Source: Paramacrobiotus metropolitanus
Taxonomy: Eukaryota > Tardigrada > Eutardigrada > Parachela > Macrobiotidae
DNA: 64,000 nt
NCBI RefSeq assembly: GCF_019649055.1
Contig: NW_026570327.1
Coordinates: 62,001 to 126,000, forward strand
Reading direction: 5' to 3'
Shown piece by piece: positions 3,301-52,198 of the stretch. The position numbers and the translations under genes were made by a program. Within the stretch, counting starts at the first letter, position 1. Each line of letters opens with the position of its first letter. Below the pieces are notes generated by a model that saw only the letters and a list, made by a program, of their open reading frames with translations, ran no database searches and had not been told where the DNA came from.

Positions 3301-6300
3301 AACCATGGGGTGCGGTGCGGTCCTTAAGACAGACTTGCTTACATACGTACTTTCCGTGGTATTAAAGCCTCGTAATCCTACGTCGCTCCCGTTTCCGCTT
3401 AATACCCTTCGAAATTATTTCAGTGCAGCTGGTGTACCTGAGCTTGTGGATGTGGCTTTTTGATTATGTTTGCGGGCATTTCGATTAACGATGATTCCAT
3501 AAAAAAAATTTGACTACATTAAAATTAGAATAGACAGCTGCCACCGAGTACAGTATATGGACTGATACTTATTTTTCTAATGAATGAAAAGGCTATATTA
3601 GCCGGCTTTGCATGAGACTCGCAATGTTTTCCGTAATATGACTGTGCAAATAAAAACTGTAATACAGTATACAGTATCTTTACGTACGATGTTATTAATG
3701 AAGCTGCACCACACAGGTTTTAATCATATTTACGCGCCAGAAAAAACTAACGCATAATTACTTTTGGGGGACATTTTTTATCAACCACACTTAATAGTCA
3801 AAAACCGTCGTAGGTACACTGTACGTAGTACGTACAAACCAAATATCGATTATTCAGAACATATGTATTTAGCCTGCGCCGAGTTTTAAAAACTGTTTAC
3901 TTGATAATGCATGCATCCGACTACGTAATCAGAAAGAGCATTGACATTATTTTGATAAGTGACAGCGTCCCTTTTTAAAATTGCAATCTGTTTCCTCACC
4001 GTAATTGGATAGCACAACAGTGCACTGTCATTAATGTGCAAATACATTAACTATTATGATCAGGTGACAAAATTAGACGTCAGGATTTACCGGCAACCAT
4101 GAATTGATAATAACTCCATATTTATACACATTACGATCATTATACTTTATATACATACACACCGTGATAAAGGGACCGCATGGAACAATTTACGCTAAAT
4201 ACTAAGTAAACCGTAAAGGTTAGCCGGTACATTTCCGGCTGACAAATACATGCACCATATGGCGCAAATGGCCCGCTGGTGTCTGACGTCACTTGACCTT
4301 TCCGGGGTTGCACACAATACATTAGTCGTGGCGTAGTCCTATGTGCCTGACAGAACCCAAGAATCTCCCGAGGGTCTCTTATGAATTCCTTTAATGACGC
4401 CTTTACATTCCCATTTGGCGTATGCATGTGTGCGCCAATACACCCATTCGCCGTTATTCATTCACGCACTGCTTTGCGCATAGCGCACCGCATCCATAGA
4501 AAATTAGCCCCTCACGCCCAACCGCCCATCAGCATATACGGCGTTGAAGTAAAAAAACCCAACAAAGCTGAAAAAGGAATTAAGAGAAAATAACGTGTGA
4601 TTTACATACATATCGATCTAGTAAAGGCGTGCTTCCGAACGGGCTAAGTTAATTATATTCGCATCACTTCGTATTTACTGTCAAAATACCGATAGATAAA
4701 TGTTTTGACAAGACCCAGCCGCGCTGACGTCGTCTAAGCCGGAAATCGATTTATCCTGTAAATCCCGGGCTGGGCTGATTGATTTGCTTCGTCAATGACA
4801 TTCCTTCGCACACTTTAATGCCCTGTATATACAAGAATACACAGACCGTAATTAATCTTTTATGTTATTCACAGGTCCGTTCACAAGGTCGCGGCGAAGT
4901 ATTGTTGTCCTTGTGCTATCAACCGGCAACCAACCGCTTGACATGTGTCATTCTCAAAGCCAAAGGACTCCCACGGAAGAACATAATGGACTTGGCAGGT
5001 ACTTGACAATTGTGGTGCAAACCCGGATGAGGCCTATTAGCTGACGCACTGACCACTTATTTTTCCTCCTTTTTTCCTCTTTCTCGCGGTTATGGTTCAA
5101 ACCGGTAAACAATACGCACATTGAAAGACATTCTCCTCCGTGTGGGTGGAAAATGGCTGGCGTAAGTCGTTCCCGGCATCACGCTCGCCTGTATATAATA
5201 TGCTCGATAACCGGCTTAATGGTTCATTACCTGGGGGCATATTCGGATCAGGGAAAGGTTAAAGCATCTTGGTTTAATCCAAAATCCAATAACTTCACCA
5301 TGACGTAACGCAATCAATATATGTGGCCAAATTATCACGAGTCTTTACAGCCGTTAACAAGATTTTTTTGGTGAAACTGAATCTCAGTTAGCTCTTCCGG
5401 CGCCCTTCGCCATGACAAATCAGATATTGACCTTAACGCCGTCTGGTACTTAGTGGCTGCCCAAAGAAATGTCGTTTTCCAATGCGGAAAATTGTAGCAA
5501 TCTGTAATATTATTTAAATAGTTAATCATTTGTGAACTTGATATTTGAAAAATGCCTGGTTTCCGCGTGCCGGTACGCAACCAATAATAATGCCAGTATA
5601 TCACCTTTTCATGGGTAAGTTTCCCAGTTTTCGTTTTTAATAGTTGTTTTGAAGTCATGCTTTATGAATTTATTTATTCTTTGCTGTTAGAACGGGGCAT
5701 TGCCTGTTCCAACTCAAGCCAGTCACAACATAGGCAAATGCCGTGCGGCTGTTGATTCTCAGTGGAAATGCCATGTTGATGTGGTTTTAATGCATTAGTC
5801 TTCGTTAAAATTGTAATAAGCAAAATGCAGTGTTGACATTTTCCTCGTTTGAAGAAAGTAATCAAAGCTTATTTAATGTCATCCATTAATAATTGTTAAC
5901 AAATGACAAAATGACTCATTAGCGACTATAAAGCAACGGTACTCGTAGATCGTCGTAGGCAAAAATCATAAATATCCGAAAATTAAAACAAATTTTCCCG
6001 CTCATGGAAACCCAGACTTAGCTGCCTGCATCTGTTTACGTTTGCATTATTGCTTGTAGCAAAAAGGCGTAAGCATTATTGAAAGAGAGTTTGATGGAAA
6101 GAACAAAAACGGAAAAGCTCGCACTAAGGCACCACAACAGCAGTGCGCCCAGTGCACAAGCTTATTTCCTTTCAGAAGCGCTGATATTAGCGATCGAAAC
6201 GTGCGCGTTAGAATTGTAAGCGAAAATAAGACTAGAAATCATTATTATTTTCGGTGTTATAAATCAGGATATCCAAAGGACTATCTGGTTGTACAAAGTA

Positions 6301-19412: not shown

Positions 19413-22400
19413 TTACTTTGTCAAAACATAAACATGATCATCCCAACGTAGAAAGGATCGTTTGGGCGGATTGGTGAGAACGATCCGCTTTCCTGTCGAT
19501 TTATCGACACTTCCCTGCAGTTTTCGGGATATCCCAAGGCAGATCATGGAAAACTGGAGAGCCGTATTGAACAACACTCCGTATGTCAGATTCTACAAAA
19601 TAAACATTCAAAAGTTTAGGTTTTGATTGATATTATTCTAATGTCACTTCCTACTAATCTGAGCAAAATTTCCAGTATTAAACGAAATCCAGCAAGTAAC
19701 AAGTGCTTTCTATATAGTGTAAGTGTAGTGTAAGACTGCTTTCTATAGTGTAAGTAAAGGTTCCTGCAGCAAAGTATACGTACTACGTAGTAGCAAAATA
19801 ATGGACCAACATATATTTACGGAGCCATCACAATTAAATTTCCAGAAGTTCAATAAATAAAAAAGTAGCAATGTATAGCTGCATACGCTTTCCGTGAAGG
19901 ATCCCGTTGCTATCCATGGGCCGTCCTTCACCGGAATCAGCCGAATGCGAATGTTGCAGTCGGACAGTTTATCGGGTGAGTACTCGTCTCCGCCCATTAA
20001 TCCCACGCCTTCCGCTAGGTAACTTTCCATTAGAGGACTTTGAAATCCGTACAATAGGTGCTCCACCACGGCCACGGCCAGAGGAGTGAAATAACTCTAC
20101 ATTTTAGAACAAATTCCAGACTTTTAATGATATCATGAGGTGCCCGTAAGATACCAATTTACACACGCACAAAAAGCGGGCACTTGTTGATTCATGTTGC
20201 AATGCCGGTATTTGGATGGAATTACTAGATATTTGGATAGTATTATACGGTATTCTTGGTTTTATTACAAGAAAGTCACGTATGGTTAGTACGATAAATC
20301 TGTTAAAAAATGAATACGATAGTTAGTACAGATAATTACTCGTAAGCTATGTTTAGCCGCGCACTTACCGTGCAAACAAGGGAATCCAATGCTGAAATGG
20401 TCACGGTTTGTCCGCACATGTATGGTTCCATCAGGAATGCTTCGGTTACTTCCGTTTCCGATGGAGCACATTCGCTTAACATCCGCACGTTATGGTCGTG
20501 TTCTGTTGGCAGGTAGTTATCAAAATTAAATCAAAACACGTTACCAACATGTATTGATAAGAAAATGTTAAACGGCATTTAGTCAAAAACTACTCAATAG
20601 TTTAATTGTTCTATAGCTTACGAAGAGCCGTGACGATTGGCAGCTCGAAATCACTTCCGGCCATCTTCCCATCGGGATGGTCAAAGGGCATGGCTTTCAG
20701 GTTTAGTGTGGTCAACACGGCGGTCTTATCGTCTAAGATGGGGTCGATAGACTTGCCGGTCCATGCCGATAGAACCACGCACATGGCGGCGGTTTTTACT
20801 GAGACCGCTCGCAGATCTGCCCGGTTGAGCGGATCTCCGTCCACAACGGTGATCAGTGGCAGATTGCGGAGTTGCGGCCACTCCCTCTCCAAGTACACCG
20901 GATTGCCCAGTAGAACAATCTCTTTTAGCTCGTTATGCGGGATACGGCTGCTGCGCATCGGCACGACAAAATCCCGCAGATCCATGATGGGATCATCCGG
21001 ATGGGAAGATACCAGGACGATAATGTGGTTTTTAAATGGATAATCCAACGCCATACTTCGATCCTGAACAAATATCGTGTACCAATTTCATAAACGATCA
21101 AAAATTTTGCTAAGCTGTGTAAAACACATCTATATTAAGGCTGCAACAAGAAGAGTAAACAAAAACGTCACCGTCAACCGGACACTGTTTTTTTGGAGGC
21201 GAAATTTCATTGAGGTATTAACTTACCAACAGTATGGACGCAAAGGGGCGGCTCTCGCACCAGTAAAAATTGCGCGATATATCCAAGAAAATTTTGGTTT
21301 TGGCATGGACGGACTTTTTACGCAGGAGCCGGCTGTCGCTGTTGAAGTCTGCACTGTCTGTCAACCTGTTGAACACAGAACACCGACCTGATATAGAAGT
21401 ATACCGGTATATCATCGGAAACGTTTGCCGCTGCTATATTTTTAAAAACATCTCGAAATGCTCTTCATAAAGCTTAAAGCTAATCAAAGCTTAAGATAGT
21501 AGGATTTAAGGTTACAGCAGTGTAAATATTTCTATTTGTACATACGCATCACTGCGGATTTTGCGCATAAGCATATCTTCAAATCCAAATGAATGTTTCG
21601 TTGGCTTGAGGGATTTTATGGGCGCGGCGCCATCCGCTTCCACTTCTTCCCGCGATTGGCCCCAGATACTCCGGTAAGGATTCCTGCGCGCTTGAACACT
21701 GGATCGTTTCGCTTTTGCTCCTTAAATAATAAACCCATAATGGCACCAATGGCATCCATAAAATATATTTGGAAATGGCTATTGTCACCCCCCTGCACCC
21801 CCTTTTGACTATCGTCGCTCCCTTGCACCCCCTTTTGACTATTGTCACCCCCTTTATTTTAATAAAATACACACCCCCTTTGACTATTGTCACCCCTCAC
21901 AACACGCCCTTTTGGCTATTGTCACCACCTTTCAATTTATTTTAATAGTCAAAAGGGCGTGCAAGGGGGTGACAATAGCCAAAAGGGGGTGTGAGGGGGT
22001 GATAATAGTCGCACCCAATATATTTTGCATTGGTTCTGACAACAGATAGAGTAAAATCTGTTTTACAGAACACGCAGTTGTGAATTCCACTGGATTTCGT
22101 ATCGGTACTAGCGCAAAAGCGCACTCTGTTGGGCTTTCTTACCGTGCTTGCATTTGCATGGGACACATCGTCCGACATCCTTTAGATTAGCGTGGCATGC
22201 TTGACAGTACCAGGAAACTCTGCGCACGTCAATGGCTGACCGTGCAAGAAATATTCCGATACAGTCCTCGCTGATGATTACCGAACCATCACATAACAAC
22301 AGCCCACTCCTTCCGTTTGATTCTGGAGTGCTGGCATTAGTGCGCGCGGGAGTAAAGGTCCCGATGAGCACGACATCCAATTTGGAATAGCACAATCTGT

Positions 22401-38483: not shown

Positions 38484-38927
38484 TCGCAAAGGTAGATTGT
38501 ATTTTAAATGTAAAGTTGTCTCGTGGGATTTCAGATCGCTTGCCGACCAGGATAGTTGTCAATAATAGGTCGCACAGTAACTTGTATTCGCTTCCTATCT
38601 ACACCTCAAAGCCTCATATAGGAATTCTTGTAACTGAAAATACTTGTTTTCCGTCAGTAGAAAGCAATCTGCTGACCACGAATACGGACCCCAATACCGA
38701 TCCAAATTAAAATCGTGTTTGTGTTGGTATTCGGCCTGCTTTTGAGTATTCGGCCGCTAGCGGCGGAAGTACGAAAAGCGAGCAACGTAACTGCCCTTGA
38801 AGCAGTTTTACCACTTGCCACAAATGTCAAAATCACCACAACTATCTGTCGCATTTCAGTTCCAAAAAAAGTTTGACATTGTGAATTTAAACATTTATGA
38901 TTCAGATTCGCTTTAGTTTATTTAAAA

Positions 38928-40138
38928 ATGAAACTGGCTACGTTAATGAAGTTGTATCTCCGGAAAAATATCTCTCGACGGCTGTTTTTAATTCTGCGAC
39001 GTAAGATACTTCGACGGAGACGAAAAACATATTTTCATGACGAATGGCGTGCAGCATCATTTAGCCTGAATGCTTTAAGCGAGAAGGAATGCTGGGATTT
39101 TTTCCGCTTTAAGAAGCATGATCTTCCTATGTTGGCGACGGCGCTTAAAATTCCGGATTTGGTCTGGACTGCAGAAGGAGACTGTGTGAATGCTGTGGAG
39201 GCCTTGTGCATTTTGTTGCGCCGTCTGTGTTATCCAAATCGATGGATTGAACTGCGTACATTTTTTGGCCGTTCCCAAGGTTCTATGTCGAGAATTTTCT
39301 ACGCGGTCTTGTCAGTACTGGATCGCTTGTGGTCGAAGCATCTTTCCCGCCTGGATCATCCCTGGTTGTCAGAAGAAGATCTCGCAGGGTACGCGTCGGC
39401 TATCTCACAGAAAGGAGGTGTTTTCCCTGATGTTTTTGCCTTTATTGACGGGACGGCGCGCCCCATTTGCCGACCAACATATAACCAGAAGATCATGTAC
39501 AGCGGCCATAAACGTCTCCACTGCACCAAGTGGCAGTCTATTTTACTACCAAACGGTAAATTCATATTTTTTGTCAATTAATAAATTACTGTAAATTTGT
39601 AATTGTTTTTTTAAACTTCCTTCACTGAGATTTAGTACATTTCAATAATTTTTGGATGTTACATTTATTGAAGTTCTGACATTTTGCTTTAGGATTAATT
39701 TGCAACCTGTACGGCGGTGAACCTGGTAGTGTCCATGACAGTCGCATGTTTCAAGAGAGTAAAATGCTCGGGCGACTGAAAACCATGCAGAGCACCTTTT
39801 GCCGGAAATTCGCGTTATATGGAGATTCTGGTTATGGAATGAACGATTATTTAAGGAAGCCGTACTCAAAACTTCAGACAGCGTACAACCGCGTGAAGAG
39901 ACACCAGAACGATGCCATGAAAACTGTTCGGGAATCTGTGGAATGGGGGTTCAAGGAAGTGGTTGTTAAATTCGCTTTTGTAGACTTCAGAAAACAGATG
40001 AAGTTATTCGAGAAACCCGTTAACAAAATTTTTCGTATGGCTGTTTTTTTGACAAATTGTTGTAACTGTTTGTACCCTAACCAAGCAAGTCAGTATTTTA
40101 ATGTTGAACCACCAACACTGGAAGAATACCTGTGTTAA
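38928..40138 (+). CDS. PIF/Harbinger DDE transposase
   Basis: Two exons: 38928-39555 and 39693-40138 (TAA), with a 137-bp intron whose removal gives LPNGLICNLYGG. The protein is about 357 residues: a basic N-terminus, an HTH-like central region (LRTFFGRSQGSMSRI) and a DDE_Tnp_4 nuclease fold. The catalytic triad is visible as FIDGTARPIC (Asp), GSVHDSRMF (Asp) and RESVEWGFKEV (Glu). It would cut the element ends and insert at TWA sites. No frame break was seen, so this copy may encode an active enzyme. The start at 38928 is the first in-frame ATG after stops, and a second ATG lies six codons on. Confidence 0.87.
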
Positions 40139-40242
40139 ACATCGGAAATAAATTTCGGTAATCTACAATGAGAAAATATTTCAATAAAAAACATCTCAAA
40201 AAATAAAACAACAAATAAAACAAAAATCTGAAAAAATCACAT

Positions 40243-40662
40243 TTACAAATCAAAAAAATTGTTATTTGACCCCCGGCCTAAAATTGCCTGCCATTTTAAT
40301 TTCTCCACTGCAATTCTCTCACGTTCAATATCCAGTTTTTTTAATTCGATCTCTTTTGCGTCAGCGGCTTGCTGTTCTTTGAATTTCAGCTTTTTCTCGT
40401 CCTGCTCTTTCATAAAATTCATCCACATAATGTCACTTTCTGCTTCCTTATCTTTTCGCATAGCTCGGGAAGATTTGAATTTCCTCTCTTCTGACATTTG
40501 TGGGACAGTGGCTGCTTTTTCTGCCCGTCGGAGACGAACTTCCTCTTGCCAATCTTGAATGTCGCCGCCGTTGGCGCTGAGCCAGTCGTTCATGGCATCT
40601 TCATCATCTAGAATTCGAAAGCCCCGGTAATAGTTTGAAATGTTGTGCATAAAGACGAGCAT
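40243..40662 (-). CDS. Harbinger accessory protein, charged coiled-coil
   Basis: 139 residues, beginning MLVFMHNISNYYRG with DDEDAMNDWLSANGGD, then a long Lys/Glu-rich helix (KKLKFKEQQAADAKEIELKK, then IERERIAVEKLK) that predicts a coiled coil. It is probably the second exon of, or a partner to, the upstream Myb-like frame at 40951-41416, but I could not make the phases join. Harbinger elements commonly carry a second, DNA-binding protein that brings the transposase to the ends. Confidence 0.6.
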   Translation of the reverse strand: MLVFMHNISNYYRGFRILDDEDAMNDWLSANGGDIQDWQEEVRLRRAEKAATVPQMSEERKFKSSRAMRKDKEAESDIMWMNFMKEQDEKKLKFKEQQAADAKEIELKKLDIERERIAVEKLKWQAILGRGSNNNFFDL

Positions 40663-40950
40663 CTAAATGTCCTAAAAGTAATAAAATTTCTATGAAATTA
40701 CGTAATCCAGCAATCAAATTTGACGTGACGTACTTACGGGAACTGTCGGAAAAAATAAAAAATTTAAAACTGAAAATCTTCAAAATCTAACACGAACCAA
40801 ATCAGCGATATTTTCTCAAGAAATCAGAAATACTAGATATCTACAAGTAGAACTTAAACGTGCATTTGTATATACCGTACATCAACATACCGTACATCAA
40901 CATCCATTTACGTAATTTTTTTAGATTATTTTGGTTGTTAAGCTTCTTAC

Positions 40951-41416
40951 CGGATAAAACGGAGACATCGTCAGGAGCTTCCTGCTCGCCCTTCTTTCGC
41001 CCGTGCTCTCCTGCAGAAACCATGAAGGCCGCTGTCCGCTTACGCATCGCCATTTGCTCAGCATGGGCCTTAGATTTCTGCTGACGCGTTTCATCGGCGC
41101 TCTTTACAAGAGTCAAAATTTCCTGGAGTAGCTGCTCCATCTTGTTGTAGTCCTCCTCCGTTCCACTTCGGAACTTCTTTTGCAGGTCGTTCGCCTGGAA
41201 TGCCGTGATGAGCACGCTGAGTCTTTCTTTCACAGCTCGGACGTCCAGAGACTTTGAAAACAGAGCAGCATCGTTCAGACTTTTCACCACATCCATCCAC
41301 GCTTTCTCCTTGTTTTCAGCCGCATAGGGATTAAAATGTTGGACTTCACCCAACAAAGCCAAATCAGCTTTCGCGTAGAATCGATTATAAGTTTTTTTAA
41401 CTAGAGTTTTTTCCAT
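40951..41416 (-). CDS. Harbinger accessory Myb/SANT-like protein
   Basis: Starts MEKTLVKKTYNRFY at 41416. The segment HFNPYAAENKEKAWMDVVKS, followed by a helix-rich RAVKERLSVLITAF, resembles the Myb/SANT-like DNA-binding proteins encoded by animal Harbinger elements. A donor GTAAGA at 40950 suggests splicing to another exon, and the frame otherwise reads on to 40841. C-terminal KKGEQEAPDDVSVLSG. Confidence 0.65.
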
Positions 41417-42302
41417 TATGAACGTTTGTGAAACAACAAGTTAAAAATTAAAATAAAATACTACGTATAATTTGAAAATAACGCACGACTGACACGAGCC
41501 AGTGCACACAAGGCAACCTATGTGTATTACTGCAATATACCGCGGCCAAATTAGATTTTACAGCCTGTTTCGGTGCTCTCCTGGGATTCATATTTTCATT
41601 GTTTATTTCGGCTTTTATCGCCCGACAAAACATATCAGAAGATAGGAAATGTTTTTTTCTATCATTCTGCAAAAACAAAACGGAAATTGGTCCACTACAT
41701 GTTCCACAGCAGCATTTCGCAACAGACACACGATTCAAAGCATAAATTCCGTATTTTACGGAATCGTACGAAACGAATGGGGCTATGACTCACGCAAAAG
41801 AGGCGGAGATTAGTATTAGGGTCCGTATTCGTGGTGCGCAGATTACTTTCTAGTGACAACACTTGAGTATGACTCTTGAACGGGCTGTTCTCCGTGTACA
41901 TCATCACTACGATGTAACCCTGCAGAGCACTATTATTGAAAGTCGTATCGATCATGACTTGACTGGATTTCCGATCGGTATCAATGTAAGATCACTATGA
42001 ATATAATTGTGATTTTCACGCATATACTGTTATGGTCAATTATATCGTTCCCGCGCTTTTTGTTTTGATTCTTCACACAGTCTCACAACCGTCAACACCG
42101 CTAGTAGAAAAAAGTAGCGGAGAACGCTAAACTAAAAGTAAAACCATTTAACAATCACTGCAGACAATTCACGAATTAAATCCTGTAATTCACAAACGTG
42201 CCGCAAAAACTTTCTAGTCACATTTTGTAAATCATTAAAATGATTAAGGAAATTGTCACAAAAGCAACTGGATATCCATAACCTCTTAATACGTCAGTTT
42301 CT

Positions 42303-44760
42303 TTATTCATCCGTTGCTTTTCGTTTCTTCGGCACTGCACCCATAGCATGCATGCGTGTTTTGTAGAGGTTGATCAGCTTGTTGTTCATCATAGCTTTGA
42401 ACACGGTGAGCTCTTTCATGGGTTGCTGAAGCTTGTAAAGGTCCGTGACATACGCTAAAACAGCACATGATGTCCGTAAATTGTATGTTGCATTGTTTAA
42501 TGTGGATATCCATAAAGAAAAATTATACGAGTACAAATAACACTAAGCGCATACCACAGAATGGAGAAAAACTCACATAAAACGGCCTGCAAAGTGTTTC
42601 GGCCAAGGAGAAAGTCCGCGCCCTGATTGTCGTACTTGTTTTCGTAGCACGCAATAATGCCCTCGTCGCCGCCCATGAGATGCTGAACTAGCTCCCAAGC
42701 ATGCCCGATACATGTTTTGGGATTCCAGATGGGACACTTCACCTTGCAGTCGTCAAGGATGGTCTCGTAGACATAAATGTCGTATCCTTTTCGCAGCTGA
42801 ACACTTCCATCGGATTTGGATTGCCAGTACCAGATGAACTTCTTGTAGCCTCCTTGGTTCATTATGATGCGTGGATTATTTTCACGTATGATTACTGCAT
42901 GATCGTTACTGCGGATATCCGTGCCATGTCGATTTCGGACAACTACATTTCTCACGCCGGGCATGCCGGTAATTGGTCGAAGATGACTGGGCAGACCATT
43001 TTTCTCTGCTGAATAAAGCGCAATGTTTTCGGCATTCAAAATAGGTGGGATATCCCGAGCCTGGTTTCGAGCTGCAACAAAATCGTAAAATATTAAGAAC
43101 GATCTAACGTAACGTAAGTCGGGGAACGTGCACTTAACACAACATCTCAAGATCAGCCTTAACTTACCCGCCGGTAAAACAATGGATGTGCTGTTTCCAG
43201 ATAATAAAGTATGGCTATCCAAAGCTTTCGTAACTTCATCTACAAATAACCCGCCCTAAAAGATTTCGTAACAGATAGAGCATCTACGTTTAGCGCTTAC
43301 TCGGTGCACTGGACGTCCCTGGTGTGGGAGAAAAATCATCGTCACAAAGAATACTGTTGTTGCCTAGAAAAGTCATTTCTTTTTTCGGATTACGCACTAA
43401 GGAAAACATGCAACGCAGCAAAATCTGGAATAGGCGATGAAGAAATTAACCAGTTTTATTCAGCCGCATTACTGCTGTTTGCACCGACTGATTTCGGATT
43501 ACATATGTTGTTGACGTGCTTGTACTGTAAAGTGCAAAGTATCTTACTGTTTTCAGCAGCATTCAGCGCTCGGTCACACTGCTTTTCTGGAACAGCCGCT
43601 CGTTTCTGTGATGCTTGGATATCCAGCTCAGTAGATTGTAGCCCCCCGCTTAATTCCCCATTATGACCGTTTGCATCTTCAGAATGAACTTCGGCTTGAG
43701 TAGTACCTGTTGCAAACGTTTTCACGAAACATTTAAAAATTAATAAAACTACGTACTTCCGCCAACGAATCTCGCATAATCAGCAATACTTGGCTGCGAA
43801 GATGTAAGCGTGGCGTAATCCTGCCCGTAGAAGCCGGGTGCATGTATACCTAACTCAAAACTTTATATGAAAGATAATGCAGCAAGCGCCGGCAAATCAT
43901 TGTAATTACCCTCCCAAACCGGCGACAACGGTAGTAAATTTAGTGCTGTTGCAATTCCAACATTTTCTAAACAATTAATTTTATCCTTAACGAGTGCAGT
44001 CGAAGTTACACTTCCATTGTACTAACCAACGGTAAGGATATCCTTCGATGGCGTTCGTCCAGTATCAGCTGCATGCATCCCCGGCAACGTATTGCTATCT
44101 ACACAAAGTTCCTTCAGTCTCTCTGCATCCTGTAAAAAAAAACTCATCTAGTTTAACGCATAAAATTATTCGGCGTAACTATGGCACTGTTACAAGGCGG
44201 CACCTTAATAGTTGCATTAGCAGCAGCAAACTAACAGCATCAGAAGGGGAAAATGGATATCCAGCATAAAACGTACTTTTACAGTTCGTCCCGTTTTCTT
44301 GCTTTCTTTAAACTTCTCCACAAGCCGGCACTTCACGTCCTGCGCTTCCTTCTCCGTCTCACATATGTCGGCTATCTCGCATACGTAAAATCCCGCAGTA
44401 AAGCCTTTCGATTTAGGAAACCAGGCCGCGACCTTATCTTCCTTCTGATATTCCGCTCCATAGCTCCCATTCTGTACCTCGTTTTCCAAAAGCCGAAAAG
44501 ATGTCTTTTCTGTGCGTTTACGGGAAAAGTCCACAACTCGAACGCAGCTATCGTGATCACTTACGACGACAAAAAAATCTACAAAAATGCAATACTGCGC
44601 CAAAAGTCATTATGGGTAGGGCCAGCGTACGTTTCTTAGCTTCCTTGCACCGGTGATGGCTATCCAACTCCTGCTGCTTTCGCTCGAATTCTCCCAGTAA
44701 GTCTTTGTTGCGCTCCGAACTGCAGGACCGGCTCCGAGAAGAGCGACGCATAACAGACAT
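42303..44760 (-). CDS. element-encoded protein with a BEN-like C-terminal region (multi-exon)
   Basis: Proposed exons, right to left: 44760-44630 (MSVMRRSSRSRSCSSER), about 44567-44267 (VAAWFPKSKGFTAGFYVCE), 44131-44040 (DAERLKELCVDS, ending SKDILT), about 43848-43760 (PGFYGQDYATLTSS), 43707-43540 (acidic, STELDIQASQ), 43240-43160, about 43072-42577 (ARDIPPIL, HGTDIRSND, HAWELVQHLMGGDEG) and 42461-42303 (TAA). Splice borders are canonical, but internal phases were not all checked. The last two exons have the spacing and helix pattern of a BEN domain, a DNA-binding fold found in some animal transposon proteins, and this is tentative. It is transcribed divergently from the transposase across a gap of about 500 bp. 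The coding exons contain several GGATATCC palindromes, each read as Asp-Ile on this strand. Confidence 0.55.
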
Positions 44761-45266
44761 CTTCAACAGACACAAGAGAAAAGTATGTCAGTAGCACGTA
44801 TAACGTACAAAAGAAAAAAATGCTCGAAGTGCAACTGAAATTTAAATACAAGCAGTTTAACTGCACACTAATAACTAAATGATGGCTTTGCAAGCGCCTC
44901 TCGAAACATCAAAAGATGCCGACAACGGGCAGAGTTGCTACTAAGCCGCCAAAGGCACGCAACGTTAAAATCCACTGAGGTAGTGGAATTCACCACTACA
45001 GCACAGTGGCAACTAGCACTACTTGCATTTCGATGTCCTGTATTGGGAATTCCATTTACGGCGTCGTATGACATAAGACTGGATATCCATTGGCGTTGTT
45101 GTAACTGGCCTTTATTTAAGCGGTTCTTTTATATTTTTATTGGTGGTGGTCTTGTTTCGCAATTTCGTATGCAAAAACTGGTTTTTAACTCGTAAGTTGC
45201 TTTTGCACACATTAGTGTTTAGTTGTAAATATGATAGTCATTTCACTGTGTCCGATTCATTTGACA

Positions 45267-47896
45267 ATGAATCGGAAGAGCACCGGAAATCTCCGAAGAT
45301 TTGCGCCAAAAACCGGTCGTTTGAGCAGGACCAGTATTTATCGCCGACTTTCAAGTTTAAGCGAGAATTCTGCTGAAGGATATCCTGATGCACTTGCAGG
45401 TAGCTAATCGTAACGGGAAACGTTTTGCAACAGTAAGATGTGAAGTACCTTAATTTTAAGTACTGCATAATTCAAAACTTCCGTAGATCGCGCGGAGAAA
45501 ATCGGCACTACCTTTCACGAGTTTGAGTTCCATGACAGCAGCAGCTACTGTGAAGCTAGTTCAGCTAAAGAATTCGCAACAGACGGATATCCGGATGAGA
45601 GCGTGACTGGATGCTCGACTTCAGCTGATTTACTGTATGATGGATGCGATGTTCTTCGGAAGGAAGCTGTTGAAGAACTCCTGCTTATTTTTCAAAAATC
45701 AAATTGCAGTAATGCGGTTCAAGAACGAATATTGTCTTTTATCGGCCGGATACTCCCTCCGGGCCACAATTTTCCATCGTCCCATTTTCTTTTGACGGCG
45801 TTTGTACGTAAAGAAAGACCGGAAATTTTCGAATATATTCATTGTGTTGAAAAAGGAACTGCCCGCGTTGCTGCCGAACCTTTAGTCTGCTGTCAGGAGA
45901 CGGAGATCACCAGAGCCAACCATGTGAAATTTTATTGTTTATCGTTAAAGGATAGCCTGCTTCAACTGTTAAAAGATCCAGATGTTTTGGAACTTATTAG
46001 TGCTCCAATCCCGGGGAATTATTTGGATATCCAGCATGGAAACAGATTATCTATGCTACCTTGCAGAAGCAACTGCCGACGTTTGACATTATTGCTTTGG
46101 TTTGACGGGGCGGATATAAAGGGAAGAAAAAACAGCTTATGGGTGGTAGCGTGGACGGTGGCTGAGTTGCCTTTGCAGTACCGGTGGAGGTTTGCGCGTT
46201 TTGCCACAGTATATGTGGGCCAGAAGAAGCCATCTGCAAACGTTTTATTCAAAACCTTAGTGACAGAGTTGCTGGCTATCCAAAACGATTCACTGTGTGT
46301 AAAGTCCGGAGAAAATACTCTCCATTTTGACGTCGACATTGGACTGTGTTGCTGTCATTCTCCGGCACGAGCTGACATCCGAGGGAGCCGGCTTTACAAT
46401 TCAAAACAGCGTGGTTGTACAAGCTGTATAATGGATGGGATGCAAGAAAACAAAAGCGTTCGTTACCCTTACACTCACGGTGATGCTGTCTGCTGGAGAA
46501 CGAACGATGGCCTAAGACAACAAGCTATCAACTGGTTACAAAAGAGAATGACAGCACAGTCAGCGAAAGAGATTCTGGAGTCGGAAGTCGGGGAGGATGG
46601 AATCAATAATTATTCTGAGATGCTCAGAGTTCCAGCGGCAAGATTTGACATGATTAAGTGCTTCCCACATGACTTAATGCACGTGATAACGAACATATCT
46701 GAACGATTGTTTTTCATTCTAAAAGAAGTGGATATCCAAGATCTACCAATTGCAAAGCAGTTCAATTTTGGCAGCCAAAAACGTTTATTAGACAAGCGCT
46801 GTGTGGACCTGCTGAGTGGCATTATGGAAACGGAAATCAAGTATCCCAGTAATTATAACCGAATCCCCGGTCCTCTCAACGAAACAAATGACTATAAAAA
46901 CAGTCAGTTCCTGCATTTATTCCTTCATACGTTTCCCTTATTGTTTCAAAGGAGGGGTGACAACGTTGACCAGGCTGTGCACCCATCTGTGCGAAAGTTA
47001 TTGCTGACATTTTCTTATGCGCTGACACATCTTTTATGCGATTATTATTCTTCGGATAGCAATCCAAAGGATATCCTGATTAACCGTGGTAAAATGGCTA
47101 AGCGACTGACCAGTGATTTCGTGCATATGGCAAACCTGTATTTCGGCACTGCACATATGACTTATGCCTTTCACCAGCTCTTGCACTGCTGCGAAAACTA
47201 TTTGGACTTTGGTCCGGCTTACGCATGGAGCGCCTGGGGATAGGAAGCGCTATTCAATCCGTTAAAGAAGAAGCAGCATGGAACTAAAAACGCAGGAAAA
47301 GAGCTAGCTAACAAGGTAGCACACGATCAGGCAGTTAGATCTGTGATCGGTGTTTCAAAGTCTGCTTGTGATTTTATTGTATCGGGATATCCCAAGTCTT
47401 TTAACACGCTCCCGGGTGAGCAAATCGCGGCACTGGAAAGGTCAACCGGACTAAAGCTTGGAGACCATAGCATCAATGCCCGAGTTTACAGTAGCATTCG
47501 TTTTGCTGATGGAAGGATAGCAGAATCTGTCAACTCTCATCACTTGACTGCTCGGTGCAATGCGGTGTGGAGGCTCAAAATTCAAAGATCGTCCAGATTT
47601 TAAATTTTGTGACATTGCAAACCGTTTCTGAAAAAGCGACTTACGTCATCGCGAAGTATTTATCGGCGGCCAGCAGTGCTGTTCCTGTGGTTTGGAAGGA
47701 AGCGGGAATCGCTTCGAGCAGCCCTACTAACCTTGAGATACCGGTGTTGTATAGACAAACGCCCCTGAACCAGCCAAGAAGCGATGCAGTAGTTGCGGTG
47801 GAACAACTTGATATCCCTTTGTTTGGTATAAACTCTAGATGCAAGCTGTTCGTTACGTATCTTTGTCCTGCAGTGAAAAACGTGCCATCAGACTAA
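45267..47896 (+). pseudogene. CACTA/EnSpm (Tnp2-like) transposase with in-frame TAG and a frameshift
   Basis: Exon 1 is 45267 to about 45409 (MNRKSTGNLRRFAPKTGRLS, then RTSIYRRLSSLS). Exon 2 opens near 45490 and reads to TAG at 47241-47243, then continues in the same frame to about 47575, then one base shifted to 47896. Key blocks are LLLWFDGADIKGRKNSLW and LPLQYRWRFA, then GQKKPSANVLFK (the DG...W...LP..R pattern of Tnp2-type transposases), FDVDIGLCCCHSPARADIRG and GCTSCIMDGM (second Asp region and zinc-like Cys pair), FPHDLMHVI, KQFNFGSQKR and MTYAFHQLLHC, then GPAYAWSAWG. The TAG comes directly before EALFNPLKKKQHG, where the family has its conserved Glu, so the truncated protein would lack that residue. 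TAG may be a nonsense change of an aromatic codon. The enzyme should cut the CCCATAAA ends. Confidence 0.78.
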
Positions 47897-48280
47897 TACG
47901 GTTTTACATTACAGCTGTTTTTTGTTAAACAACTTTTTGATGCAGGCAATAATACTTGTTTTCTATAGCTGGATATCCAGATGAATAATGTACACGGTAA
48001 ATCTGTGTTTAACGATGAAATCGAACAATTCTTCACCCAATACATTCTACGTGATCATAAAAATATCAGTCGGTGTACTTAACTTTTGCCACTTGTTACC
48101 CAGATATGGACAGGATACAAAATAAACAGGTAGTAGTGAACGAGCATCTAGACGTTACGATCGAAAATAATCGCTTAACGCAATCACGACTTTATAAGCA
48201 CTCACCAGTCAGTGCTACTCCACAACGTGTAAAAAAAACAATGACAGACTTTCTGCCCACAATACCGACCAATTACTCTA

Positions 48281-49940
48281 TCACAAAAGAAAGAACAATT
48301 CCGTTTCCAATACGAAACGCTCACCACCCTCGACCAAATCCGGACCATTGAGCGCAACATTGAGATTCCGCACAAGGGCGCCTTCACGCAGCGTGGCACA
48401 ACCGAAACAAAATTCGGAAAAAAGTAATTCTGTGCAGCATCTAATGAACAGCCATAAAAAGTGCAGCGAGAACACAAGTCAGATTCCTTATCAACTTATC
48501 ACGGTGGGATATCCCGCATCGTTTAACCTCCATGAATCTCAAACGCAAAATCTCCAGCCTGGTTGTACTGCAGCGCAACGTCACCGTTGATTCCGTTCCC
48601 GCGGCGCAGTCGGCGATGGAACTCTTTGCCAACCGGAAAAACGCGTCCATTCGGTGGCAGCAGATCATCGTAGAGCGCCCCGTCCATAAACGGGCAGACG
48701 CTGGCATGGTACGTTGCGTCCGCGCTTGTACTCCCCGTCGGGCCGCGTACCGGCAAGTGACACTTTTCGCACTCAAAACCACCTTGCATCTACCAAAAAC
48801 AACAGATACAGGGATATCCCGAATATCGATTTTGGGTACTACAATAAATATACGCACAAACTGTTCTCGATGGATATCCATCACATGCTGATTCAGGCGG
48901 TGAGCCACGGGATCCGCCGGGCAATACGGGCATCGAACCCGATGAATGTAGTGGCCTGAATCGCGCTGCTCACGCCTAATAAAAGAAACGTTACACTCTT
49001 TATTGCGCTGTAATTTTACTTATTAACTTGCATTTGGCGGATGTGATGTTCACAGCTACGAATGCAGTCGCGAACGCGTTGGAAGGAATAAGCTCCATCA
49101 GCTATCAAATGCTCTGTGTGGACAACATTTGCGAGTTTGGGGATGCCGCAGTGCAGCGCCAGCTGCATGAAAAACTGTAAAAAACGACACCATGTTTATG
49201 TGCTTCTAGTTTCTTTGACTTAACGTCTGCAAATGGATATCCAGACTAAAATGACTTACTGATTTATCACGAAAAGAAAATACCACATCGTACATATACA
49301 GTATTCCGCATTTTTAGCACACTGTATTACCGTAAGCTGTATACTTGTTTATCACAAATAGACAGTGACAGACTATTCTACCTGCGGGTCACGGTCAGCA
49401 CCAACAGCAAACGGACGCAAGAACGCATCAAAGAAAACCACACGAAAGTAACTGTTTCCCGTACGCCAGCGCAGTCCGTCTGGCAGCACAACTGCCTTGA
49501 TAACTTCTTCTTTCACTCGCCAACGTTTCATGAACTGGCCCAAGTTCACTATATCCGAAAAATTCCAACGATCCAGCACCATTGCCGAATGAACTTCCTT
49601 CCCAATTGTCGGGATATCCCCATTGCTGCAACCAATTGAACTTGCCACTACATATGTACATTTTGTGCACGCAAACTAGATACAATATTGTCAAAAAATA
49701 ATTTCATACACGCTACTGCCAACGCTTCGAAGACTTTCAGGAAATGAATGTCAGCGGCTGGAACAACTTCCAAATTCTGGAGGGTGATGGGGATATCCCG
49801 ATACAGTTCAGCGCTAAGATCAACCACGACGAACAAACCCGCATGAACCTGATGATTCATGATTTCTTGGACAACACCACTCTGCCAATCCAGTTGCTGT
49901 GCCATTTTGACGCAGATATAAATGGGAGTTTTAAGGAAAC
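48281..49940 (-). CDS. element-encoded C2H2-type zinc-finger protein (multi-exon, start unresolved)
   Basis: Exons, right to left: about 49940-49730 (DWQSGVVQEIMNHQ, YRDIPITLQN), 49640-49395 (NGDIPTIGKEVHS, RWRVKEEVIKAVVLPDG), about 49170-49030 (MQLALHCGIPKLANVVHTEH), about 48970-48858 (SGHYIHRVRCPYCPAD, NQHVMDIHREQF), 48789-48528 (GGFECEKCHLPVRG, HASVCPFMDG) and 48429-48281 (LREGALVRNLNVALNGP, stop). The fourth exon holds a C-x2-C-x12-H-x4-H finger, and the fifth has CxxC...HxxxC. The last two exons join in phase across a 98-bp intron, itself bearing one palindrome copy. The start codon and the junction near 49.65 kb are unclear. A DNA-binding partner of the transposase is inferred. It is convergent with the transposase gene. 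Confidence 0.55.
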
Positions 49941-50368
49941 AAAAATATCTCAGGAACAAGAACAAAGTACGAATGTTTGGGAAGTACCAAAGAACACTTT
50001 CACAAAGAAATGAAAACACAAGGCTCAAGCCAAAAATCTGCTTGATCACGCTCCTCAATGCAGGTCACATTATACGGTACGTACCGTATAACGTGTACGT
50101 TCTACGCCGACTACGCGTATCCCGCTCACTTTCGTGCGCACGCGGCATATGCGGTATGCTTTTGTTTTGCACATAGTTCCAATACGGCACTGCTGCAATA
50201 TGACTTTAAGGCTGATCGAGAATGTAATATTTAATCTGCCCACGATGAACTACTGATATCTATGTGTCCTGGCTTAATTTTAAATCTAACGTTGTATGAC
50301 TTGGATCTGGGCGGAAGCCTTCTTCGAAGCAACCGAAAAAGATTCAAATTGTAGTCCTGACAGCCGTT

Positions 50369-50380: not shown

Positions 50381-51802
50381 GATAGGCTTCGGCGTCGTTG
50401 ATTTTAACATTTTGCAGACAAGCGGCATAAAGCAGACTTCCTTGAACATAATGTACATACGTCTGGACTTCCTTTAAAAAAGACTTGACCTCCATGCTTG
50501 GTTCGCTCCTAAAGAATGCCATAGTTTGCGTATGCGAGCAAAATAACATGTTGATTGCTGTGGAAGGTACCCACGGACTAATAAAAACAATATCGAGACA
50601 GTACTGTCGTCGATCTGGTCGGCTCAAATCCTTGACCAGCGACTGCATCGTTCCAATGGTGATGTGCCCGGAAACCACAATGTGGTGCACACCGCGCTCC
50701 GGTTGGTAAGGCGCGGCGAATTTGTGCCAGTTGCTGATGATTTCGTATATTTCTGGTACTGCCGAGGCAAACAATGCCTGAAATAATATAATGATGATTT
50801 CTGTGGATTACAGAAATTAGTTAACAAAAAAAGGGTAACAATGACTGCCAAAAAAACTGTCGTACCAAAACTCCCACTATCAGCATAATGCAGAAGATCT
50901 GGCCAAGAGTCGATTTGGGTGAAATGTCGCCGAATCCTACTGTCGATCTGCGGGAAACGTTGATTGGTTTCTTCTCGAAAATTCAAGCACGTAATTTAAT
51001 TTTCAAATATTTTATGATGGGGTCGATAGATTTTTATGCAGCCGATTTCAAAGTGACAACGTACAAAGTGACAACGGACATGTACACCCATTCCCAGTAT
51101 GACTTGTCCTGACGAGTAGCATCGCTGTCAACTTGCAACCAGTCATCCCCAGTTAATTCCAGCTAAAAAAATTAGTAAATTTTAAAATGTGTTATAACTT
51201 ATAACTAGTGTCGCCTTAAAATGGATACAACGTTGCTTAACGATGTACGCATTCGGCCATCAACCTTTAACAAATTAAAAAGTTAGAATTTTTTATTGTT
51301 AGAAGTTTTTTTACGATTTCATGAATTGATGTTCGTGAATTAAAGTGAATTCAGGTGACAGAGTTAAAAAAAGAATATCACAGTGCAACAACAAAAACAA
51401 CAATATTGACTCATTACTATTAGAATGAAGTGAAATTGATCCATTATTCTTCATACTTCATAGTATATGTACTGCAATGTATCGTTCTTACTTCTTACAA
51501 GTTACATTAATTTTTATACTACGTAAAACGTAGACCCTGTCGACCGCCCGCAGCGGACGAACGGAGTTGAGACAACGAACCCCGCTCGGTGACAGCCAGC
51601 GTGCAAAGTATTGCGTTCAGCACTTTAGCTGCTAAACTTTAGCAACAAGAGTATGACGTATTGTACAGCGAATTAAGCGTATCCTCCCAGCCACCAAGAA
51701 AGAAGTTCCAGAGTTCGTTAATTTTAATTTTTAGGAATCAGCTGTTATGAGTGTTATCATAATTATTATGCTACGTAGATATAGCATGTTGAATATCTTA
51801 AA

Positions 51803-52198
51803 ATGGCTAGCCTGTCGAAACGTGACCTCCGCGCTATTATGTATTTTAATTTCTTGAAAAAGATGAATGCAGTTGAATGTCATACGGAAATGCATGCCTT
51901 ATTCGAGAATCAGTGTCCTTCAGTAAAGACTGTGGAGCGATGGTTTCGGTGTTTTCGTTGTGGAAAATTCGACCTGGACGATGATAGGAGATCGGGACGA
52001 CCTTCAGCGAAGACTCCAAGAATGATCGCAGCGGTGCAGAAGTTAGTTAATGAGGATCCGCAGATATCTATCAAAAAGATAGCTGATGAAGTGGGGATTG
52101 GTGCGGGCACTGTTTTTTCTATTCTGCGCGTGGACCTGAAATTGCACAAGAGTGCTTGTGGTTGGGTGCCTCGTACGGGAAAGCGCTCCCGTGTTTAA
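51803..52198 (+). mobile_element. mariner (Mos1-like) transposase N-terminal HTH fragment
   Basis: 131 residues with the paired-like double helix-turn-helix of mariner transposases: LSKRDLRAIMYFNFLKKMNA, CPSVKTVERWFRCFRCGKF, the DDDRRSGRPS linker and a second HTH (ISIKKIADEVGIGAGTVFSI). The frame then ends, and only a short basic stretch follows (to about 52400). No catalytic DDE/D motifs were found, so it is a truncated copy. It lies in the intron of gene C between the S4-S5 and pore exons. No terminal repeats were identified. Confidence 0.75.

Follow-up and report, generated by a model that had tools for sequence, protein, structure and literature searches.

Dispersed palindrome arrays with complementary free bases in related tardigrade DNA transposons: candidate binding sites for an element-encoded Tudor-BEN protein

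HIP1 of cyanobacteria is a highly iterated short palindrome that occurs genome-wide and far above chance. In the CACTA element Spm/En, a short motif repeated near the ends is bound by the element-encoded protein TnpA. The VANDAL elements of Arabidopsis contain the motifs YAGTATTAY and AGTTGTCC/AC within tandem repeats of non-coding DNA, and their description does not call them palindromes (PMC5735166). The BEN domains of NAC1 and Insv bind the palindromes ACATGT and CCAATTGG (PMC7764960). Our literature search returned no paper on BEN domains in transposons, and the search for palindromes iterated in transposons gave matches on bacteria or oligomer statistics only.

A first-pass annotation of a 64-kb window, the whole stretch of DNA analysed here, described the palindrome GGATATCC as iterated 21 times (25 with variants) along a single DNA transposon. 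The iteration was confirmed, and the observation is larger than first reported. The repeated unit is longer than the original palindrome, and the feature is present in several subfamilies of related elements, each with its own motif, rather than in a single transposon. The complementarity of variable bases between the two arms of the sites is new in this analysis and is its most novel part. The pattern points to an undescribed recognition system in which the partner of the element is probably a protein of its own.

Distribution of the palindrome in the window element

The window contains 24 exact copies of GGATATCC, and 21 of these are located within 42270-49798. Simulating 42200-49900 with a first-order Markov model produced 0.07 copies on average (maximum 1), and the average over 100 dinucleotide shuffles of the entire window was 0.51 (maximum 3). 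Four variant sites (TGGCTATCCA at 43213, 44658 and 46274; AGGATAGCCT at 45950) bring the array to 25, with GGCTATCC/GGATAGCC as the variant classes. The commonest degenerate site, GGCTATCC, carries one A->C change, and a sister copy described below often has GGATATCC at the matching places; GGCTATCC may be a tolerated variant rather than a product of decay.

The exact sites occur in the transposase ORF, in both minus-strand genes and in the spacers between them, which bears out the dispersal through coding and non-coding DNA noted in the first pass. The confinement to the element was likewise borne out. Three copies were found in the other 56 kb (at 6267, 19527 and 28570), and the Harbinger element that adjoins the array, which serves as an internal negative control, contains none; both counts had been given in the first-pass annotation. 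The isolated copies at 19527 and 28570 have further sequence in common (GGATATCCc.AG.CAGATCAT), as if they derived from duplicated exons or genes. Genome-wide, GGATATCC occurs 2819 times in 169.8 Mb, which is near the approximately 2300 expected from composition by our own arithmetic, and corresponds to one copy per 60 kb compared with one per 0.36 kb in the array. This background density rules out GGATATCC as a genome-wide feature. A tandem-repeat or duplication origin of the array was also rejected, because the flanks of the sites are mutually unrelated. In a codon-preserving control of the transposase ORF, a mean of 0.9 copies (maximum 5) was obtained against the five observed. This control is weaker on its own because the codon pairs required are common in the ORF, and the argument therefore relies on the element as a whole together with its related copies.

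A DNA search of the genome revealed one further close copy (C1:3533975-3535312, 74% identity). The sister element to which it belongs, C1:3531441-3539514, shares approximately 62% DNA identity overall with the window element and also contains 21 copies of GGATATCC, so the enrichment recurs in another copy. Eighteen of the 21 window sites are matched at aligned sister positions with at most two core changes. Neither of the two outcomes that the first-pass annotation named as refuting, copies lacking the enrichment or a similar density throughout the genome, was obtained. Between the two elements, the flanks of the sites changed at 83 of 180 positions, the core at 7 of 144 and the pair of bases immediately outside the core at 3 of 36.

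The sites in the window array have a mean spacing of 313 bp and a coefficient of variation (CV) of 0.43, compared with 0.94 for random placement. Mean spacing across all copies, including those of the related subfamilies below, ranges from 268 to 454 bp, and 8 of the 11 copies have a CV of 0.26-0.50, where random placement gives 0.93. Of the remaining copies, two are not significantly even and one is weakly even, and each has one long gap. This distribution bears on the possibility that the array serves the transposition machinery, with either the transposase or an accessory factor binding there so that the entire element can undergo synapsis or be packed, much as TnpA acts at Spm/CACTA ends. 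Sites that are limited to elements and differ by subfamily would suit such a function, but the sites extend evenly over the full length of the element, even through the middle of the transposase ORF, and are not concentrated at the ends, which makes it quite unlikely.

The coordinates of the features are listed in Table 1. Judged by eye alone, the conserved transposase motifs resemble the TNP2/TnpD type (CACTA/EnSpm); in Pfam, the window copy matched only DUF1258, below the cut-off, and its relatives had no relevant match. The window transposase copy is probably inactive. Neither CACTA-type ends nor an obvious target-site duplication was found in three copies of group B, whose ends read CCCCCGTGAAAA...GACGGCTT. 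A 22-bp perfect palindrome, TTATACGGTACGTACCGTATAA, is located at 50070-50091 just right of the third gene, possibly near the element end, and a Mariner-like helix-turn-helix ORF (51785-52198), recognised by eye, adjoins the element and appears broken downstream.

Table 1. Features of the window element and the adjoining Harbinger element.
Feature	Position	Strand	Description
Harbinger	38653..41857	.	TIRs 38653-38702 / 41808-41857; adjoins array on left
GGATATCC array	42270..49798	.	21 exact 10-bp palindromes N-GGATATCC-N' and 4 variants
Tudor-BEN last exon	42303..42462	-	C-terminal part of BEN-like domain (AYVTDLYKLQQPMKELTVFKAMMNNKLINLYKTR...); splice sites by eye
BEN-like main exon	42581..42994	-	GSVQLRKGYDIYVYETILDD...GRNTLQAVL
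N-terminal Tudor-like domain, same protein	44301..44579	-	DFFVVVSDHDSCVRVV...
Tudor-BEN first exon region	44557..44787	-	MSVMRRSSRSRSCSSERNKDLLGEFERKQQEL...
Transposase ORF	45471..47603	+	590 aa, stop TAG 47241-47243, frame open to 47603
Third gene, several exons	48441..50064	-	Cys/His-rich, weak zf-Di19 match; conserved with sister element

Complementary free bases between the arms

The two bases that flank GGATATCC are complementary to each other at all 21 window sites (T..A 10, G..C 6, A..T 3, C..G 2), which extends the palindromic unit to 10 bp, its outermost pair being free. When the right-hand bases were permuted 20,000 times, the number of complementary sites did not exceed 16 in any permutation. 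The flanks of the four variant sites are complementary too, as are those of 20 of the 21 sites in the sister element, and one double change (C..G -> T..A) separates the free pairs of the two elements. One base further out, complementarity was observed at 3 of the 21 window sites, which indicates no relation.

A protein search identified transposase relatives at 22-28% amino acid identity. Their elements contain no GGATATCC array; instead, other dispersed dyads were found at similar density, namely GTCGAC-based, GGAGCTCC, GGAWWTCC and GCG-ANNT-CGC motifs. GTCGAC occurs 17-21 times per 9.5 kb in two subfamilies (seven copies), GGAGCTCC 18-21 times in three copies, and GGAWWTCC 28 and 34 times in two copies. 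GCGANNTCGC was found in one copy and resolved as GCGNNNNCGC, with 40 copies. No iterated dyad, gapped dyads included, was found in the C76/C11/C320/C9:191500 subfamily (L033-L036). Together with L043, this related subfamily has a gene with Tudor-like and BEN-like domains yet lacks an iterated dyad, and provides a natural contrast. A further relative (C346, 38% amino acid identity) was rejected as an array carrier; this copy is decayed and of low complexity, and no array was seen.

GTCGAC subfamily A has palindromic 16-bp sites that follow TG-NNN-GTCGAC-N'N'N'-CA with minor variation. Their three inner positions vary by site and are complementary in 16-19 of 19-21 sites. Between the copies L024 and L025, flanks changed at 74 of 180 positions and free positions at 6 of 108, with one compensatory change. 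At the right end of this subfamily, diverged GGTTAC/GTAACC-rich repeats (L024 7400-9430 and L028 7440-8360) are nearly without GTCGAC sites. GTCGAC subfamily B has one coupled free position (17/17, 21/21 and 17/17 sites), as does the GGAGCTCC subfamily (20/21), in which a double change, T..A -> A..T, distinguishes L041 from L042. Thus, in four subfamilies the bases next to the core vary between sites yet are nearly always complementary across the arms. The free bases of GGAWWTCC and GCGANNTCGC sites are not coupled.

Across the coupled copies, free positions are complementary in 334 of 361 pairs, a total that counts homologous copies, which are not independent, and so exaggerates how many events occurred; the permutation tests within single copies are unaffected. 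The three copy comparisons yielded three compensatory double changes, where approximately 0.1 would be expected from the observed single-change rates (our own arithmetic). Central positions, where variable, are not coupled. The mismatches among the 27 broken pairs include three G.T and four A.C. RNA hairpins were rejected as the cause on the basis that G.T is not in excess, although transcription of both strands could hide such an excess.

These observations raise the possibility that the arms are compared by base pairing, with a DNA hairpin or cruciform either being the working form of the site or serving to maintain it. Pervasive complementarity, the compensatory double changes and uncoupled central positions are all in line with pairing, G.T mismatches no commoner than A.C favour DNA over RNA, and folding energies of -3.3 to -4.7 kcal/mol were obtained for the 16-bp sites. 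However, folding is marginal for the 10-bp window sites (-0.1 to -0.4 kcal/mol), which are coupled equally strictly, and GGATTTCC sites of about equal folding ability are not coupled. We regard hairpin or cruciform formation as unlikely.

A mutational process could also render the arms complementary with no selection for complementarity. In this case quasipalindromes would be corrected through template switching, or through cis gene conversion, where a site is strongly bound. Correction of this type has been described (PMC7202029, PMC3820800), and one of the compensatory changes lies between copies only approximately 4% apart. On the other side, ordinary palindromes in this DNA are not extended: of 242 with a length of 8 bp in window 1-38600, 65 reach 10 bp, where about one in four is expected. 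This result also led us to reject a general palindrome excess in the surrounding DNA as the cause. In addition, coupling ends sharply, at +2 in the window element and at +6 among the 16-bp sites, and subfamilies whose cores are similar do not share it to the same extent. Correction of this kind retains a slim chance. Because the 10-bp hairpins are unstable and ordinary palindromes are not extended, simple folding does not account for the complementarity, and a general bias in repair does not either.

No standard model of a dimer site leads to complementarity of free bases, because each monomer reads its own half. To our knowledge, no known direct-readout protein would impose arm complementarity on free bases, and we know of no precedent for covariation between the arms of a double-stranded DNA site that is compensatory as in RNA stems. 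We tentatively propose, as a possibility somewhat short of even odds, a type of DNA signal that combines a fixed core with free bases, beside or within it, that have to be complementary across the arms. The signal would be repeated approximately 20 times per transposon, and self-complementarity itself would be the property that is recognised or maintained. Arm covariation of this type would need a new mechanism of recognition or maintenance.

A candidate reader encoded beside the transposase

The multi-exon Tudor-BEN gene is located left of the transposase and runs in the opposite direction, and this divergent arrangement was observed in several subfamilies. The N-terminal domain was modelled with a pLDDT of 76. 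Its eleven best structural matches are all Tudor domains, with modest Z scores of 4.4-5.8 (ARID4B, 5.8; RBBP1, 5.6; JMJD2A, 5.0), and a weak match to the SGF29_Tudor profile was obtained (E 0.0037). Foldseek alone gave no significant match for this domain, and the Tudor assignment derives from the second structural comparison.

The BEN-like domain was aligned across six elements that were spliced by eye. The resulting profile, compared with 177,635 PDB sequences, matched only the BEN domain of NAC1, over 25 positions and at non-significant E values of 0.43 and 0.59. Pfam BEN (PF10523) gave no match over the cut-off in the domains of the window element, group A, group B, L037 and L038, nor in a scan of the element's own genome. 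The AlphaFold model of the single BEN-like exon is poor (pLDDT 36). The domain is present in the GGATATCC subfamily, in both GTCGAC subfamilies and in the GGAWWTCC subfamily. It was not found in the fetched parts of the GGAGCTCC subfamily, and the GCGANNTCGC copy has a weak candidate only (E 0.037). The array-less C76/C11/C320/C9:191500 subfamily has both the Tudor-like and the BEN-like domain, as read in C76; here the role of the BEN-like domain must differ, or the sites must be of an undetected kind.

Even coverage, replacement of the motif between subfamilies and linkage to a gene for a chromatin-type protein speak for an element that is coated by the protein it encodes. We estimate a probability of about 0.5 that the palindromes form a family-specific, whole-body array of binding sites for the element's Tudor-BEN protein, which keeps the element from silencing. 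The first-pass suggestion of a site for an element-encoded BEN-like protein thereby appears, from sequence, to be the best reading. The protein, which would combine a Tudor-like chromatin domain with a C-terminal BEN-like domain and is encoded divergently from the transposase, would bind the palindrome through its BEN-like domain every 300-450 bp along the whole element body. Such a coating would set the chromatin state of the element, most plausibly allowing escape from silencing, as VANC does on plant VANDAL elements; the anti-silencing outcome is proposed by analogy with that system. An argument against binding by the element's own protein is that a dimer reading the DNA directly has no means of imposing complementarity on the free bases.

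The sites might instead be targets at which a host protein silences or marks the elements, and be kept since elements benefit from regulated silence. Conserved sites at a chromatin-scale spacing would fit a host protein, but the motif differs from subfamily to subfamily, and several subfamilies encode their own putative reader beside the transposase. Co-evolution with a linked gene explains the change of motif between subfamilies more easily, which makes a host protein very improbable.

If the element's Tudor-BEN protein reads the arrays, the system would be an animal counterpart of plant VANC/VANDAL in which a single genome contains several pairs of motif and protein that evolved together, and the evolution of DNA-binding specificity and escape from silencing would become directly testable. 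Proteins of the window type and of the GTCGAC type should then each bind only their own core among TGGATATCCA, GGGATATCCC, GGAGCTCC and TTGATGTCGACATCAA, and asymmetric flanks, such as TGGATATCCC, should reduce binding.

Comparison with known systems

The first-pass annotation likened the array to the iterated palindromes of bacteria. This likeness did not hold, as the motifs here are family-specific and confined to elements; unlike HIP1, they differ between subfamilies. Compared with the subterminal sites of Spm/En TnpA, the sites cover the whole body of the element. Insv, Elba1 and NAC1 are chromatin proteins that bind short palindromes (PMC7764960), whereas the BEN-like gene described here is located in a transposon, encodes a highly diverged domain and has its candidate sites on its own element.

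The VANDAL/VANC system of Arabidopsis shares with these elements a short enriched motif that is repeated in the element and differs between related families (PMC5735166). In that system, an element-encoded protein has an effect that reaches the whole element (PMC5735166), and the correspondence proposed here is one of functional analogy only; VANC proteins and the Tudor-BEN protein are not known to be related. The VANDAL motifs lie in non-coding tandem repeats, whereas the sites of the present elements are dyads that are dispersed, evenly spaced and conserved in position, and that also occur in coding sequence, including the transposase ORF.
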